Made by a program: the position numbers and the translations under genes. Below are positions 3,597 through 15,398 of a stretch of 47,140 nt of DNA, piece by piece (position 1 is the stretch's first letter; each line of letters starts with the position of its first letter). Under the pieces are notes generated by a model. It worked only from the letters and a program-made list of their open reading frames with translations. It was not told the origin of the DNA and ran no database searches. This DNA is from an uncultured Bacilli bacterium (GTDB lineage: Bacteria; Bacillota_I; Bacilli_A; RF39; UBA660), in NCBI GenBank assembly GCA_947625575.1, contig CANQOV010000005.1, positions 1 to 47,140 of the forward strand, written 5' to 3'.

Positions 3597-4461
3597 TTAT
3601 TTGATTTTGTACTTCTTCTGCAAAGTTTTCGTTTCTTTTTTCTAAACCTTCTCCAACTTCAAAACGAATCATGTTTAAGATTTCGCCTTGATGAGATTTT
3701 ACATAATCAGATACTGAAACATTTTGGTCTTTGATAAATGGTTGATCTTTTAAACATACTTCTTTGTAGTATTTAGAGATTCTTCCTTGGACCATTTTTT
3801 CAGCGATTTCTTGTGATTTTCCTTCATTTATTGCTTGTTCTTTGAAAATTGTCTTTTCTTGTTCTAGAACATCTTCAGGAACATCAGATTTATCAATGTA
3901 GGTTGGACGCATTGCACAAGCGTGCATAGCAACGTCTTTGGCAACTTCATTATCAGCACCTTCTACCAAGGCTAAAACAGCAATTTTACCACCCATGTGT
4001 GTGTAATCTCCAAAATGTTGAGTGGCAGTTTTGTCAAGACTTGCAAATCTTCTGAAGCTTATTTTTTCACCAATTTTTGAAGTGATAGCTGTTATTGCAT
4101 CAGCTACAGATTGACCGTTCATATCTACTTGTAATGCTTCTTCCATAGTTTTAGCATTTGACTTTAATAAAGCTTGAGATAATGACTCTACAAAGTTTTT
4201 AAATTCATCGTTTTTAGCGACGAAATCTGTTTCAGAATTTACTTCTAAAATAACGGCTTTGTCGCCCTCAACAGAAATTTTAGATAAACCTTCTGCAGCG
4301 ATTCTTTCACTTTTTTTAGCAGCTTTGGCAATTCCTTTTTCTCTTAACCATACTACTGCATTATCCATATTGCCATTTGATGATTCTAAAGCTTTTTTGC
4401 AATCAAGCATTCCTGCTCCTGTTTTTTCTCTTAATGTTTTTACATCTTGAGCACTAAACAT
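3589..4461 (-). CDS. tsf: Elongation factor Ts
   Basis: VKTLREKTGAGMLDCKKAL, VNSETDFVAKN; downstream of rpsB as usual. Confidence 0.96.
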   Translation of the reverse strand: MFSAQDVKTLREKTGAGMLDCKKALESSNGNMDNAVVWLREKGIAKAAKKSERIAAEGLSKISVEGDKAVILEVNSETDFVAKNDEFKNFVESLSQALLKSNAKTMEEALQVDMNGQSVADAITAITSKIGEKISFRRFASLDKTATQHFGDYTHMGGKIAVLALVEGADNEVAKDVAMHACAMRPTYIDKSDVPEDVLEQEKTIFKEQAINEGKSQEIAEKMVQGRISKYYKEVCLKDQPFIKDQNVSVSDYVKSHQGEILNMIRFEVGEGLEKRNENFAEEVQNQING

Positions 4462-4474
4462 ATAATCCTCCTTA

Positions 4475-5494
4475 TTATTTACTTAATTCATCTATTAATT
4501 CTTGTTTTTTCATAGTGCTATAACCTTTAATTTCTTTTTCTTTAGCCATAGCTTTTAATTGTTGTAAAGTTAGTTCAGTTAATTCTGGTTGTTTTTTAGC
4601 TGTTGGACGTTTTTCTTTAGCTGGTGTTTCTTCTTTTTTTTCTTCTTTAGCAACACTTTTTTTAACTTCTTTTTTTGGTTTTACTTCTTTTTCTTGATTT
4701 TCTTCAGTGTCATCTTTTTCAACTTTTACAAATTGTTTACTTTCAAGTTCTTCAAAAGTTGGCTCTTTGTCTTGTTTTTTACTATCTTCTTGACCAACAC
4801 AGTTAATTATTTCATTACCATTTACTGTAGCGATAGCATTAGTTAAAGCATTTATTACTAATTTTACTGCTCTTACTGCATCATCGTTAGCAGGTATTAC
4901 ATAATCAACCATATCTGGATCACAGTTTGTATCCACGATACCAAATACTGGAATTTTTAGCTTTCTTGCTTCTTTGATTGCTGTTTCTTCTACTCTTGGA
5001 TCAACAATTATCATAGCATTTGGTAATTTTTTCATTTCTCTTATACCACATAAATTGGCATTTAGTTTATCATATTCTTTCTTTAATTTAATTACTTCTT
5101 TTTTAGGAAGTAGTTGCATTGTACCTTCACTTTCCATTTTTTCAATGTCTTCAAGGTATTTAATTCTACTTCTTATTGTTTTGAAGTTAGTTAAAGTACC
5201 ACCAAGCCATCTGTTGGTAACGTAGTACATATTTGTTCTTTTTGCTGCTTCTTCCATTGCTTCTTGGGCTTGTTTTTTAGTTCCTACGAATAGAAATGTT
5301 CCACCATTTTCAGCGATTTTTTTAATTTCTTCATAGGCTTCTTCAATTAATTTTAATGTTTTTTGTAAATCTATAATATAGATATCCTCTCTTGAAGTGT
5401 AGATATATTCCTGCATTTTAGGATTCCATCTTCTTTTTTGGTGTCCAAAGTGTACACCTGCTTCTAATAAATAATTCATTGACACTACTGTCAT
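4475..5494 (-). CDS. rpsB: 30S ribosomal protein S2 with long C-terminal extension ending in a Rho_N/SAP-like motif
   Basis: [19 protein letters not shown]...[10 protein letters not shown]; Lys/Glu-rich linker then [32 protein letters not shown]. Confidence 0.95.
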
Positions 5495-5580
5495 AATAAT
5501 TTCCTCTCTTTCGTTAATCTTCTACAAAATTCAAAATAATATCACCAATTGGCACTCGATATTAAAATTCTTTTGTATGT

Positions 5581-6102
5581 CTATTTTAATGCATCTATTA
5601 ATTCTTGTTTTTTCATAGATGTATAGCCTTCGATTTTTTTACTCTTTGCTAATTGTTTTAATTCTGTAACTGTAAGAGCTGTTAAATCTTGACTAGTTGT
5701 TTTTTCTTGTTTTTCTTTATTTTCTTTTACTACTGGTTTTTGTTCTACTTTTGTTTGCCCTTTAGCAATTTTAACTAAATTAGCAAATGCTTCTTTATCT
5801 GATATTGCAAGTTCTGATAACATTTTTCTATTGATTTCAATACCATTTTTTGATAAACCATTAATAAATTTTGAATAACTAATGTCATTTACACGACACT
5901 CAGCATTTATTCTAGTTATCCACAATTTTCTAAATTCTCTTTTCTTTTGTCTTCTGTCACGAAATGCGTATCTTTCTGAATGCATTACTTGTTCTTGAGC
6001 AGTTTTGAATAGTCTATGTTTACTTCCAAAGTAACCTTCTGCTTTTTCTAGAACTTTTTTTCTTCTTGCACGTGTTACTACGCTATTTTTTACTCTTGCC
6101 AT
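5581..6102 (-). CDS. rplT: 50S ribosomal protein L20 with C-terminal Rho_N/SAP-like extension
   Basis: [19 protein letters not shown]...[15 protein letters not shown] followed by [31 protein letters not shown]. Confidence 0.95.
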
Positions 6103-6114
6103 AAATTATCCTCC

Positions 6115-6318
6115 TTATAGTACGTTTTTCAATCTCTTTAAATCAGATTTACTTAATTCTGACTTTTCATTTTTTCTTCTTGTTACTCTTGATGAATCTT
6201 TTCCTGTTTGATGGTTTACTCCACCATGGGTTTTAGTTATTGAACCACTTTGTCTAATATTTAAAACTTTTTTGGTTCCTTTATGTGTTTTTGTTTTAAC
6301 TTTTTTGGTCTTTGCCAT
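6115..6318 (-). CDS. rpmI: 50S ribosomal protein L35
   Basis: KTHKGTKKVLNIRQSGSI...; located between infC and rplT. Confidence 0.92.
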   Translation of the reverse strand: MAKTKKVKTKTHKGTKKVLNIRQSGSITKTHGGVNHQTGKDSSRVTRRKNEKSELSKSDLKRLKNVL

Positions 6319-6329
6319 ATGTTTTCCTC

Positions 6330-6860
6330 CTATTTTTCTTTCTTTGGTGTAAGCAACATTGTCATATTTTTTCCTTCTAAACGGGCTGGTTGTTCAATAT
6401 CAGCGATTGTTTCTACTTTGGTTGCGAAACGATTCATTACTTCTTCTCCAATTTCTGGATGAGTTGATTGTCTACCTTTAAAACGAATACTCAATTTTAT
6501 TTTGTGTCCTTTTTCTAGGTATTTTGAAGCATTTCTTACTTTGGTATCAAAATCTCCAACATCTATAACTGGCGATAGACGATATTCTTTTAATTCTGCA
6601 ATACTGGCCTGTTGTTTTTTTCTTGCTTCTTTTTGTTTTTTAGCTTTTTCATATTTGAATTTGTTGTAATCAATTATCTTGCAGACAGCAGGATTAGCGT
6701 TGCCGTTCATTAAGACTAAATCTAAACCAGCATATTGGGCGATAGTTTTCGCATCTTCAATCTTTTTTACACCCATTTGTTCCCCGTTAGGTCCGATTAC
6801 TAAAACATGACTTATTTTGATTTGATCATTGCATAACAAATCTGTATTGTTGTTTGCTAT
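6330..6860 (-). CDS. infC: Translation initiation factor IF-3, probably starting at a non-canonical ATA codon
   Basis: LCNDQIKISHVLVIGPNGEQMGVKKIEDAKTIA...; SD GGAGGTG (6867-6873) lies 6 nt before ATA at 6858-6860; the longer ORF call to 6962 runs through the leader. Confidence 0.85.
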   Translation of the reverse strand: MANNNTDLLCNDQIKISHVLVIGPNGEQMGVKKIEDAKTIAQYAGLDLVLMNGNANPAVCKIIDYNKFKYEKAKKQKEARKKQQASIAELKEYRLSPVIDVGDFDTKVRNASKYLEKGHKIKLSIRFKGRQSTHPEIGEEVMNRFATKVETIADIEQPARLEGKNMTMLLTPKKEK

Positions 6861-6962
6861 ATAAAACACCTCCATAATATAAAAGAGTACGAAATGTACT
6901 CTATCCAAACATACCAAAAACATTAATTTTTTTCTTGGCTTTTTACCTATTGCTACTGGCAA
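6861..6962 (-). promoter_or_regulatory. infC-rpmI-rplT leader with attenuator-like hairpin (possible L20 leader)
   Basis: Perfect 7-bp stem AGAGTAC-atttc-GTACTCT (6884-6902) followed by TTTTATATT on the minus strand, just before the infC SD. Confidence 0.5.
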
Positions 6963-7181
6963 TCAGGTGGATATAGACATCTCTTTCCTTTTTTACAAGT
7001 ATGATTATATAATACTTGATTGTTTTTGTCAATTATTTTCTTATTTATTATATGTTATTTCTTATTGAGTAGAATAAAAAGTTAAATTCTCGATTTTGAA
7101 GACTAGGATTTTTTAAGTTTGCAATACTTTTTATGAAAAAATGCTCATTTTCACGAGCATTTAATTTTAAAATCGCACTTT

Positions 7182-7643
7182 TTATTCTTCACAAGTAGCA
7201 CCTAAAGCAACGTATATTGATTTAAGGCCTTTTAAAGTTAATTCATTTTTACTGTTTAGGGCATTTTTCATAGTTGGCTCATCTGTTACTAATTTACTAA
7301 AATCTAGTTTTGTGTAATCTATTTTAGTGCGTGATGTTAATTTGTTATCTTGTATTTCAATGTTGTTAGTGTAACCACCGTATTTTTCGTTCATAGTTTG
7401 ATATGTTTCTTTTAAAGTTTTTTCAAATATTTGTAATACTTCTTTTTGGTCACTTGTTACTGTTTCTATGGTGTTAACAGATGTTACAATATCGCCATTA
7501 GTGGTGATTTCATAAACTGATTGTATGTCATAGGTATCACTGCTGTTTAAAGTACATTTTACTACCCTTTCCTCTTTAGAATTACATCCAACTAAAAATA
7601 ATCCTAAAACAATGACTAAACTGCTCATTAATATTTTTTTCAT
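7182..7643 (-). CDS. Lipoprotein, DUF1307/YehR-like
   Basis: Lipobox FLVGC; short secreted domain ending GATCEE. Confidence 0.5.
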   Translation of the reverse strand: MKKILMSSLVIVLGLFLVGCNSKEERVVKCTLNSSDTYDIQSVYEITTNGDIVTSVNTIETVTSDQKEVLQIFEKTLKETYQTMNEKYGGYTNNIEIQDNKLTSRTKIDYTKLDFSKLVTDEPTMKNALNSKNELTLKGLKSIYVALGATCEE

Positions 7644-7728
7644 ATTTTCACTCCTTTTAAATTATAGTAGCACTTTTTTGTTATTTATTCTACAATTTTA
7701 AAAAAATTCAAAAAAAAGTTCATTTAAA

Positions 7729-7971
7729 ATGAACTTAATTTCTTTATTGGGAGATAGCCCGCTAAATAAAATAAACGGTGTTCAAGTAAGACAAGGTTTA
7801 TTTGGAAAAATATTTAATTATGGTACTGTTTCAATAACAACAGCTTCAACAGTATTTAATTTCGACTATATTGATAAACCAAACGATTTTAAAACTATTT
7901 TAAATAATCAAATTGAAAAATATGATGATGATAGAATAGAAAAACAAGCAAAAAAATGGCAGAAGCAATGA
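7729..7971 (+). pseudogene. Truncated bacterial PH-domain (bPH_2/DUF304-like) remnant
   Basis: LNKINGVQVRQGLFGKIFNYGTVSITTAS resembles the C-terminal half of bPH proteins; membrane half missing. Confidence 0.5.
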
Positions 7972-7985
7972 AATAATCAATTAAA

Positions 7986-8015
7986 CCTGACTAAATAAAT
8001 AGTCAGGATTTTTAA
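7986..8015 (+). terminator. Intrinsic terminator
   Basis: CCTGACTA-aataaa-TAGTCAGG followed by ATTTTTA. Confidence 0.7.
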
Positions 8016-8030
8016 TATATTTATATAAAG

Positions 8031-8059
8031 CAAAAGGAAGAGTTAAACTCTTCCTTTTG
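8031..8059. repeat. Perfect inverted repeat, 14-bp arms with 1-nt centre
   Basis: CAAAAGGAAGAGTT-A-AACTCTTCCTTTTG. Confidence 0.75.
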
Positions 8060-8334
8060 AAAAACTTCTACCAAGTGTATAAATACACCTGCAACAATCT
8101 AAAGTACTTTAATTATACCATTTCAAATATTTAAGTCAATGTCTTTTCTCGTTTTCTTTAGATTTATTATAAATAGTATTTTGCTTTATTATAAATTTTT
8201 TATGTATATATTTTATCATGTGCCTCTATTTATCTATAATACCTCTTTCATTAGTCATTTATAATATCACTTTTTTATAATTTGTCAATTTCTTATTTAG
8301 GAAATAAGAACTTTTAGATAATTTTTAATAACAA

Positions 8335-11902: not shown

Positions 11903-12544
11903 TTAATTACTAATTTTTTTCCAATAAAATTTATTACAATAACTATCAAGCATTTGTGAATATGATAATGTTATAGTTGTATCACATCGAAACTCGTTTC
12001 CAGAGGCGATTGAGCCACCAGAAGTTTTACACACAACATCAATACTTCTAATTGCTCCAGTATTATCAATTTCAATCATTATAATACCGTTTCCACCATC
12101 TGCTGTTGCTATAAATCCTTTGTAACTTATACTTGGTTTAGAAAACCCTATTCTTTCCCAGTCAATTTTTCCATATTCAATAGTTGAGTCTGCAACAGTA
12201 ACAGATGGATTAATATGTATGGCAATATTTGCTGTGTGTCCAGCTAATGATGCCCAAACTTTAAATGTTGAACAATTACTCTTTGTTACATAGTCTTTAT
12301 CACTAGTAGTTATATATTGTGATTTGAACTCTTTATCAATTAATTCCCATGTTCCCCCATACTTTGATTGGGGATTTTCATTTGTTGATGTACATATAAT
12401 CATGTTGGGCTGTGTGATAAACTTATCTAATGTATTTCCACTTTTTGAACTTATATTGCAAGCTATATCTTTCCATGATATTTTGCTATTGTTTCCAAAT
12501 AAATTACTAAATATTTTCATTATTTTTCGTATCATAATTAACAT
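11903..12544 (-). CDS. Tail fibre/receptor-binding-type protein, paralog 3
   Basis: FSNLFGNNSKISWKDIA head and YGGTWELIDKEF motif shared with 12563 ORF. Confidence 0.65.
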   Translation of the reverse strand: MLIMIRKIMKIFSNLFGNNSKISWKDIACNISSKSGNTLDKFITQPNMIICTSTNENPQSKYGGTWELIDKEFKSQYITTSDKDYVTKSNCSTFKVWASLAGHTANIAIHINPSVTVADSTIEYGKIDWERIGFSKPSISYKGFIATADGGNGIIMIEIDNTGAIRSIDVVCKTSGGSIASGNEFRCDTTITLSYSQMLDSYCNKFYWKKISN

Positions 12545-12562: not shown

Positions 12563-13183
12563 CTAATTGCTAACTTTTTTCCAGTAAAATTTGTCGCAAT
12601 ATTCATCTAACATATTATCCATTGCTGTTGCAAAATCATAATTAATATATGCATTAGCTCCTGAAGCTATAGATGTTGCACTACCTCTTCCAATAATATC
12701 AACACAGTTAGCAATACCAGTATTCCAAGCTATATTTACCATGATAATACCATTATTTACATCTGTTCCTGCAAGCAAATTTGTTGGGCTAAAATGCATC
12801 GTACTTATACCAAGTTTTTTAAAATCAATTGTAAATAATTCTGCGGTAGTGTCTGTTAATGCCTTGGCGGTAACAAAATTTATTCTTAATGAATTAGTAT
12901 GCCCTGTACGAGCATAATAGATTGTGCATGATGAAATATTACTTGTTATAGAAGAGCCAGTCAAATCAAAATGTCCTGCCTCATTTCTAAACTCTTTGTC
13001 TATTAATTCCCAAGTACCACCATATTTTAATTGTGGGTTTTCGTTTTTTGAAGTACAGATGATCATATCTGGTTGTGTGATATATTTATCTAATGTTTTA
13101 GATTTATTACTACCACCTTTACAAGCTATTTCTTCCCATGAGATTTTTGAGTTATTACCGAAAAAATTCTTAAAAACTTTCAC
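12563..13183 (-). CDS. Tail fibre/receptor-binding-type protein, paralog 2; probable GTG start at 13183
   Basis: KVFKNFFGNNSKISWEEIA head, YGGTWELIDKEF, KFYWKKVSN end; SD GAGGTG 6 nt before GTG. Confidence 0.65.
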   Translation of the reverse strand: MKVFKNFFGNNSKISWEEIACKGGSNKSKTLDKYITQPDMIICTSKNENPQLKYGGTWELIDKEFRNEAGHFDLTGSSITSNISSCTIYYARTGHTNSLRINFVTAKALTDTTAELFTIDFKKLGISTMHFSPTNLLAGTDVNNGIIMVNIAWNTGIANCVDIIGRGSATSIASGANAYINYDFATAMDNMLDEYCDKFYWKKVSN

Positions 13184-13209
13184 GATTAACACCTCGACTA
13201 GAGGTTATA

Positions 13210-13260
13210 TTAATTACTAATACAACCCCCCCCCCAAGTCTTAAATTTTTTGTCTTTCAT
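13210..13260 (-). CDS. Candidate 16-aa small ORF containing a G10 tract (MKDKKFKTWGGGCISN)
   Basis: Manual translation; same K-rich/[FW]GGGC pattern as 13721-13792. Confidence 0.4.
   Translation of the reverse strand: MKDKKFKTWGGGCISN
13226..13235. repeat. Homopolymer tract C10 (G10 on coding strand)
   Basis: Direct read; exceptional in this AT-rich sequence. Confidence 0.95.
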
Positions 13261-13286
13261 ATTATTAGTTATTAACTAATTGCACT

Positions 13287-13724
13287 TTATGTCTTTACTT
13301 TGCCTATGGCTAACCATGAAATCGTTGGCTCTACACCTCCAGTTGAAGCATTAACTGATTGTATTGTAAAACCTGTGGAAGTCATTGAAACTGGCTTATT
13401 TACTACATCTTTATAATTTTTGTTTGTCGTACTATTACTCATTTGCAAGAATACAAAGGCATTGCTTCCAAACTCTTCTTTATATGTTACTTGAGTATCT
13501 GTATTTGCTCCTGCACTTATTTTTATTGGCTCTCTTCCTAATGTAATTTGTAAATCGCCAATTTTGATAACAGATTGTGTATTACTTGCAACGTTTGTAA
13601 AATATGTTTCAATTTTAGGTATTAACTTATCAAGTGTTTTTGCTTTATTACTGGTGTCCTTACCTGCTATTTCCTCCCACGATATTTTGGAATTATTTCC
13701 AAATAAATTTTTGAACACTTTCAT
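13287..13724 (-). CDS. Tail fibre-type protein, paralog 1; probable start at 13724
   Basis: MKVFKNLFGNNSKISWEEIA head shared with the other two paralogs. Confidence 0.6.
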   Translation of the reverse strand: MKVFKNLFGNNSKISWEEIAGKDTSNKAKTLDKLIPKIETYFTNVASNTQSVIKIGDLQITLGREPIKISAGANTDTQVTYKEEFGSNAFVFLQMSNSTTNKNYKDVVNKPVSMTSTGFTIQSVNASTGGVEPTISWLAIGKVKT

Positions 13725-13792
13725 AGGCATACAGAGTGCAATTTAATTAAATAACTGCACCCCCCCCCGAACAAATGTTTGTTTTTACTCAT
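13721..13792 (-). CDS. Candidate 23-aa small ORF containing a G9 tract (MSKNKHLFGGGCSYLIKLHSVCL)
   Basis: ATG overlaps the upstream gene stop (ATGAGTAA); its TGA overlaps the downstream ATG (ATGA). Confidence 0.5.
   Translation of the reverse strand: MSKNKHLFGGGCSYLIKLHSVCL
13760..13768. repeat. Homopolymer tract C9 (G9 on coding strand)
   Basis: Direct read. Confidence 0.95.
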
Positions 13793-15398
13793 TACTATCT
13801 TCCTCACTTTCTATAAATTCTTCTATACTAGGGCTTTCAACAGTGTTTGTATCATCAAAAATGCTTGGTTGTTCTACCATGCTTTCATCTGCTGTCGCCT
13901 CTTCCCAGTCTTCACTTTCTGCAAAAAACGGAACTAGATATCTATTTGAATATACATCTCCCCAAAATTGAGTGCCTCCAAGATTTTCATCATACTCTCC
14001 ACCTAAAGCAACTTTATTTAGGTGTCCGTCAATTGCTGGAGAGCCAGCCATTAAGGTTATATTATCAAAAGTTATTTTATCTAGTGAATCTTCTATTTCT
14101 ACAATTATGTTATAAGATTTATCAAGTATAAAGCCATTGTCTGGACTATCTCCTTTAACATAATCATCAAAAGAAAATTTGTTTTGGCTTTCTGTTAAAA
14201 CAATTGCTGTTGTTCCATCTACAAAACTTGTATCAGTTACTTTTTTATATCTATATTTTACTTTTAATGTATTTTCAACTGCTCCAAAATTTCCTTGCCA
14301 AAATGTTCCAGAAAAGCTTAACTTTGTTTGTGTTGATGAGCCACCGTCTCTTAATGCTGTTGCATTTCCTTTACCTAGTTTTTGATAATTTATGAATTTA
14401 CTTACTTTTTTTGATAAACTTGTTGAATTGCCTCTTGTATCCACTGCATAAACATTTATTGTATCTCCAACCATGCCAATAATTGTATAAGGCAAGTTAG
14501 ATGGAGAAACCAAAGTATTATTAATTAAATAATGATCAATTGTAGCCCCTTTAGTTCCTGTTGCGGGTGTTACTGAGACTTTAATATTACTAAAGCCACT
14601 TACACTGGTTTTACTATCTTGTGTTAACTGTATTGTTTTGGTATTAATATCCTCATAATCAAAACTTGAAAATTGAGGGTTTGCATTTGTAATAATTGCT
14701 GTAGAGTTTAAAGAACTTGTTCCTAAATTTGTGGTATCACTTAAAGTCTCCAAATCCCATTTAATACTTAAACTATTACTATTAGGGGACAAGCCATATA
14801 TTGTATTTATCTGTTGTTGAGATAGCGATATACTATCTCCGTCAGAAACATCATTAAATTTTGCAATTTGTGTTTGCCCACTAGAGCCTACAAAATACAA
14901 TGTTAAATTGTTTATATATGAATCATCATGCCTAGTTATTGACAAAACTAGTGATTGTTCTAAATTTAATGAGTTATTATTTTGAAATTCATTTAATACA
15001 CTTATAAGTTTTGAAAGCGATAAAGAAGCTGTTCCAGACATTTTATCACTTGTGGCATCACTATAATAACAAGTAAATTTTACTTTTACACTTGTAGTTG
15101 TTGACGGAATATTTACTTCAAAAGTATCATTTGTGGTGTGAACACTTGTATTGTTCCATGAGTCATTTCTACCTTTTAGGGTTAATCTTTTTGTTTGGGT
15201 TGTTATTCCAGTACCACTTATTTCAACTTCTCCATACAAATATATACCTGTTCCGACATAACCAGATGAAGTAACTAAATTTGTTTTTGCTGTTAATTTG
15301 AAGTTTGTTTTAGTGCTAGTTCTTGATGATTCTGTTATTGTTAATACACTTTTTGTTGTTGTTCCTGAAATCATCTTTTGTAAAGTTATTGTTGCCAT
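13785..15398 (-). CDS. Phage minor structural / baseplate-type protein
   Basis: Large beta-rich protein between the tail endopeptidase-like protein and the fibre genes. Confidence 0.65.
   Translation of the reverse strand: MATITLQKMISGTTTKSVLTITESSRTSTKTNFKLTAKTNLVTSSGYVGTGIYLYGEVEISGTGITTQTKRLTLKGRNDSWNNTSVHTTNDTFEVNIPSTTTSVKVKFTCYYSDATSDKMSGTASLSLSKLISVLNEFQNNNSLNLEQSLVLSITRHDDSYINNLTLYFVGSSGQTQIAKFNDVSDGDSISLSQQQINTIYGLSPNSNSLSIKWDLETLSDTTNLGTSSLNSTAIITNANPQFSSFDYEDINTKTIQLTQDSKTSVSGFSNIKVSVTPATGTKGATIDHYLINNTLVSPSNLPYTIIGMVGDTINVYAVDTRGNSTSLSKKVSKFINYQKLGKGNATALRDGGSSTQTKLSFSGTFWQGNFGAVENTLKVKYRYKKVTDTSFVDGTTAIVLTESQNKFSFDDYVKGDSPDNGFILDKSYNIIVEIEDSLDKITFDNITLMAGSPAIDGHLNKVALGGEYDENLGGTQFWGDVYSNRYLVPFFAESEDWEEATADESMVEQPSIFDDTNTVESPSIEEFIESEEDSNE

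Follow-up and report, generated by a model that had tools for sequence, protein, structure and literature searches.

The receptor-binding proteins (RBPs) of the Campylobacter Fletchervirus phages are phase variable through hypermutable poly-G tracts (Sorensen et al. 2021 Cell Rep 35:109214, as cited in PMC8713573, PMC10877375, PMC10579305). The likeness to the locus analysed here is that poly-G tracts of the phage switch (in our phages, would switch) some of several RBPs while the host surface is itself poly-G phase variable; the difference is that Fletchervirus phages are lytic phages of Campylobacter, whereas those studied here are unrelated temperate siphophages of small-genome Bacilli. In the Campylobacter phages the tracts lie within the RBP genes, whereas at the present locus they lie outside the RBP reading frame, in a separate leader ORF, and control is proposed to run through coupling and hairpin opening.

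Phase variation by poly-G tracts has further precedents in the promoter tract of Neisseria porA (PMC3639595) and in the Campylobacter phasome (PMC6321876). The likeness is that slippage in a G run switches surface genes, of which the present host has both promoter-spacer and in-ORF versions, but the prophage tract lies in neither a promoter nor the regulated ORF. Tail fibres are also diversified by the invertible segments of Mu and P1 and by the Bordetella phage DGR (PMC10579305). These share with the proposed switch a pre-programmed variation in phage host recognition; unlike them, the locus has no invertase or reverse transcriptase, and its tandem alternatives would be turned ON or OFF.

In attenuation and erm-type leaders, a structure masking a downstream SD is opened when a short ORF ahead of it is translated, and stop-start overlaps of the ATGA type are known. 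The leader ORF, the hairpin that may mask an SD and the ATGA overlap described below resemble such leaders, the difference being that the input would be a heritable tract length and not a drug or an amino acid. A search of the open full-text literature, with few subscription journals covered, found no paper on a phage RBP switch that works through a poly-G leader ORF and translational coupling, which is weak evidence of novelty; poly-G switching of RBPs is known from the Campylobacter phages, and a tract in a coupled leader ORF, in phages of gut Bacilli, appears to be new.

The prophage and its fibre genes

The window, meaning the whole stretch of DNA analysed (47,140 nt), is an entire 47 kb contig (C5) from a genome totalling 1.15 Mb, whose owner is a member of a small-genome Bacilli family. 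It holds a prophage of siphophage type, whose genes include those for integrase, terminase, portal, capsid, tail and endolysin, and the tyrosyl-tRNA synthetase gene adjoining the prophage is probably a host gene. Three fibre genes, all with a common N-terminal segment (MKVFKNLFGNNSKISWEEIA...), lie in tandem on the minus strand, with a DUF859 tail protein on one side and the lysis genes on the other:

13785 to 15398, minus strand: DUF859-type siphovirus tail protein, its 3' end overlapping leader ORF 1
13287 to 13730, minus strand: fibre gene 1, start likely ATG 13724 (MKVFKNLFGNN), no SD
12563 to 13183, minus strand: fibre gene 2, GTG start, with an attachment-like N-terminal domain and a C-terminal beta domain
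11903 to 12520, minus strand: fibre gene 3, a paralogue of fibre gene 2, without a poly-G leader

Profile matches of fibre gene 1, which were weak and C-terminal, were to tail fibre and Gp53-like proteins. The AlphaFold model of the fibre 2 protein, built from an eight-sequence alignment (mean pLDDT 81), has a predicted fold resembling that of RBPs: the TP901-1 receptor-binding protein ORF49 and gp15 of Listeria phage PSA were among its best solved-structure matches in Foldseek, with probability near 1 and E values of about 1e-3 to 1e-2 against these RBP heads and with low TM-scores (0.3–0.4 by query). Taken together, the weak profile matches of gene 1, the RBP-head fold modelled for gene 2 and the position between tail and lysis genes mark the presumably regulated genes as encoding receptor-binding or tail-fibre proteins. 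No direct relatives of the window leaders or the window fibres were found among IMG/VR and annotated phages.

Two poly-G leaders and their reading frames

The only runs of at least eight G in the window are one G9 and one G10 tract (five G8 matches against 0.05 expected from shuffles), and both sit in short leader ORFs directly ahead of two of the three tandem fibre genes. The leader of fibre gene 1 comprises:

13721 to 13792, minus strand: leader ORF 1, encoding MSKNKHLFGGGCSYLIKLHSVCL and a stop at G9; its TGA (13723-13721) overlaps the fibre gene 1 ATG (13724) as ATGA
13760 to 13768, minus strand: G9 tract of leader 1, in the presumed ON, coupled state
13737 to 13759, minus strand: stem-loop TGCAGTT...AATTGCA, directly after the G9 tract, holding off-frame stop codons

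Leader 1 comes with an SD-like sequence and shares bases with the 3' end of the DUF859 gene. Its stop forms the ATGA overlap with the fibre start only at G9; at G8 and G10 the leader ends 25 and 21 nt, respectively, before that start. Fibre gene 1, in which no SD is recognisable, should depend on the leader stop at its start codon.

The leader of fibre gene 2 was the subject of the initial annotation, and the minus-strand sequence confirms its account of the leader sequence, the G10 run, the hairpin, the GAGGTG SD and the GTG at 13183:

13210 to 13260, minus strand: leader ORF 2, encoding MKDKKFKTWGGGCISN and a stop at the assembled G10 (ATG 13260-13258, TAA 13212-13210)
13226 to 13235, minus strand: G10 tract of leader 2, presumably OFF; coupling to fibre gene 2 would need G9
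13191 to 13205 (read 13205-13191), minus strand: hairpin ACCTC-TAGTC-GAGGT, whose 3' arm carries most of the fibre gene 2 SD
13190 to 13195, minus strand: fibre gene 2 SD (GAGGTG), 6 nt ahead of GTG 13183

At G10 the leader stops 29 nt before GTG 13183 and 4 nt before the hairpin; at G9 it encodes MKDKKFKTWGGVVLVINITSSRGVNRESF, passes the ACCTC/GAGGT hairpin and stops 11 nt past the first base of that GTG (+11); and at G11 it encodes MKDKKFKTWGGGLY and stops earlier than at G10. Our recomputation thus returned exactly the outcomes claimed for the three lengths, and the suspicion that the unit is duplicated was correct, the companion leader (MSKNKHLFGGGCSYLIKLHSVCL, G9 at 13760-13768) preceding fibre gene 1. 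In-frame fusion of leader and fibre was considered separately and rejected, as no tract length joins leader 1 or leader 2 to its fibre. A terminator at the hairpin was likewise rejected; the sole terminator-like site lies on the plus strand and is at chance level.

Leader 2 begins 26 nt past the stop of fibre gene 1 and has no recognisable SD of its own, which leaves its own translation uncertain. RNA folding pairs the fibre 2 SD inside the hairpin (mean p_unpaired 0.17, z-score -1.9), and this occlusion is modest: it was equalled in 7.5% of shuffles (P 0.075), which is not significant for the locus alone and only suggestive. In the assembly fibre gene 1 is presumably ON (G9) and fibre gene 2 OFF (G10; ON at G9), these tract lengths being known from one assembly and the genus consisting of one genome, the window's own.

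Recurrence in related phages and in host genes

The relatives came from three sources: fibre homology, matches to the DNA patterns SD-ATG-polyG and polyG-GTTATTTA in the family genomes, and pattern scans of IMG/VR; the scan of viral contigs for ATGAAA...G9 gave mostly unrelated sequences among the matches listed, and contributed L113 and L124. This yielded 14 leader instances, with the near-identical L223 and L230 counted once. Family genomes supplied the window (two), L097 in G090, L254 (two) in G404, L255 in G314 and L037 (two) in G189, and IMG/VR phage contigs supplied L113, L124, L223/L230, L225 (two) and L231. Their shared architecture, looser in L037, is a leader sORF with a poly-G tract, a stem-loop and a leader stop at the fibre start, ahead of tandem fibre genes.

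In 12 of the 14 instances exactly one tract-length class puts the leader stop between -5 and +11 nt from the fibre start, and in the remaining two the stop lies 17 nt or more upstream of that start. A strict cut-off was satisfied by 11 of 14 against 2.2 expected from dinucleotide shuffles of the spacer (P 1.5e-7), and a slightly looser one, with the searched-for GTTATTTA element held fixed, by 12 of 14 against 3.0 (P 2e-7), values that are only indicative because the cut-offs were set after the data had been seen and because some leaders are homologous, so that the instances are not fully independent. Five of them have the ATGA overlap (+1), namely leader 1 of the window (W1), L124, L113, L225b and L254a. 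Both exceptions come from the G189 prophage, where the pattern is loose in L037a (stops at -12 and -16) and absent in L037b (-56).

As assembled, six tracts among all the instances fall in the coupled class and the others are uncoupled, about half ON and half OFF, as expected for a randomly sampled switch. The near-identical pair is 99.5% identical over 1012 nt and encodes the same 202-aa fibre behind homologous leaders, yet the L223 tract is CGC-G9 (coupled, ON) and that of L230 is T-G13 (uncoupled, OFF). Several other assemblies carry poly-G tracts at the same place independently. A homologous fibre array without a poly-G run was seen in G050 (L038:1-100), on a contig that starts at a G-rich GGGAGGTTGTTTACTAAC; this resembles the sequence 3' of the tract in other leaders and is perhaps a decayed or assembly-broken tract. 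A tandem repeat of the pentanucleotide GAACA lies downstream of the fibre gene of L124 (14250-14306), at the end of the examined stretch.

Folding from leader to fibre start gave z-scores averaging -2.8, and at most loci the fibre SD lay within a stem. Compared with shuffled leaders that kept the SD in place, the native leaders left the fibre SD less accessible (10 loci, combined P 1.5e-4), strongly so at L113, L223, L225b, L254a and L255 and at chance level at L225a, L231, L254b and L097. Occlusion thus varies by locus and is only suggestive for fibre 2 of the window, which makes the stop-start geometry the firmer shared feature. The initial annotation had proposed that tract length sets SD access and had called for a comparison of homologous loci for a conserved small ORF plus hairpin. 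Tract control over the next start is well supported by those loci, where the small ORF and the stop-start pattern recur, but the SD hairpin, common and not universal, is not by itself the common feature; what the loci share is a leader stop that falls at or against the fibre start codon. The direction of the effect, which that annotation had left uncertain, may be read from the same comparison: it suggests that the hairpin-passing class (G9) is coupled and presumably ON and that G10 is OFF, although opening of the hairpin at the TAA may still leak.

First leaders have an SD. Second leaders are mostly without one and start 26–42 nt past the preceding fibre stop (window leader 2 at 13260, L225b near 3838 of L225, L254b and L255b); L037b is a second leader with an SD. 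For this reason a relay may exist, with the first fibre that is ON gating the leader behind it.

The host genome (G000) carries dozens of further tracts of at least eight G. Eleven are TTGACA-polyG-TATAAT promoters with total spacers of 15–20 nt, around the optimal 17, and the genes behind them are of surface type and glycosyltransferase-like; poly-G promoter loci include L002, L007, L010, L012, L015, L053, L055 and L056, a large promoter phasome. Many other host tracts fall within the first codons of genes for secreted or membrane proteins (e.g. MKDKKIVWGGATRKNIILIGGLVL...), among them a secreted or membrane family (L022, L025, L028, L054, L057, L059 and L060) with poly-G in codons 8-11 (M-[EK]-[ND]-K-K-x-V-W-G-G-ATRKNIILI...), in which ON and OFF lengths coexist in one genome. 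Across 193 family genomes, 17 have TTGACA-polyG-TATAAT promoters and 28 have SD-ATG-polyG starts. The leader module, which recurs in other phages, appears to be part of a host poly-G phase-variation system that extends across the genome.

Other poly-G forms were noted in passing. Three tandem genes before the lysis region of the G072 prophage (L096:8735-10061) each have poly-G within their own opening codons, and of these genes just the third is in frame; the tail region of the same prophage (L096:2834-3907 and 5315-8316) has, by eye, a reverse-transcriptase-like ORF with an adjoining, very Cys/Gly-rich repeat protein and then a radical-SAM-like protein. In L049, whose contig bears the title Methanobrevibacter and has the look of a mis-binned Bacilli phage, a DUF859-like tail protein is frame-broken at a G8 run (3998-4005) in a conserved GGTWxLIDKEF motif. 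In G071 (L089:1524-1532) poly-G lies in the first codons of an ORF resembling, by eye, a type I restriction specificity subunit and frame-broken at the assembled G9. With tracts in the genes' own codons (L096), in a tail-protein motif (L049) and in leaders, poly-G control of fibre genes would take more than one form in these phages.

A proposed translational switch and its alternatives

We consider it likely that the poly-G leaders are phase-variable translational switches for the tandem receptor-binding genes of a temperate siphophage, acting by slipped-strand mispairing and translational coupling. The length of the G run would shift by slipped-strand mispairing in replication. One of the three length classes would let the ribosome translate the leader through the stem-loop, opening it, and terminate at or beside the fibre start codon, and the same or the next ribosome could initiate there; in the other two classes an early stop would leave the stem-loop closed over the fibre SD, where an SD exists, and the fibre would be poorly made. 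At leader 2 termination would take place at TAA 13212, 4 nt short of the hairpin, and the ribosome could briefly open the hairpin from there, so the OFF state may be leaky. Coupling would set the level of expression, and switching would change host binding.

The same runs of G9–G13 are plausible slip sites for RNA polymerase or the ribosome, and in many instances a stem-loop directly follows the tract, as programmed recoding would have it; a fixed fraction of events would then enter the coupled frame, giving a constant fibre ratio and no heritable switch. That reading we regard as unlikely, in view of near-identical phages that differ in tract length, of ON and OFF lengths in about equal numbers where one conserved length would be expected, and of host poly-G in promoter spacers, whose effect depends on DNA length alone. 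Homopolymers are also error-prone in sequencing, and the tracts could be neutral or assembly noise in ordinary intergenic sequence, with the fibres always expressed; their confinement to the front of fibre genes in this prophage, and their presence at the same place in other phages and several independent assemblies, make this quite improbable.

It is very improbable, too, that the poly-G is incidental and the leader acts as an attenuator or as a short peptide, regulatory or otherwise functional. The leaders do have a K-rich start in common and, in many cases, GGG[CS]YL, but the residues after GGG vary between phages while frame and stop position are conserved, and on the minus strand no intrinsic terminator was found at the hairpin. 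The eleven poly-G promoters of the same genome lend some colour to a DNA-level role, with the tract spacing promoter elements as it does at host promoters; neither window tract, however, is flanked by -35/-10 hexamers, a promoter scan stayed at shuffle level and the tracts lie inside leader ORFs, and we give this explanation almost no credence. More speculatively, the poly-G leader may be a portable switch, shared with or taken from the surface-gene switches of the hosts and set ahead of tandem receptor-binding genes, by which a phage population carries ON/OFF combinations of binding proteins; we put this forward tentatively, as a possibility rather less likely than its opposite.

If the proposed switch is real, slippage-driven heritable switching of host-binding genes recurs outside the Campylobacter phages, in temperate phages of little-studied gut Bacilli. 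The surface genes of the host being poly-G phase variable as well, both sides of the arms race would then rely on one mutational device. A coupled leader would allow ON/OFF control with the regulated protein unaltered, and a phage population could vary what it binds.
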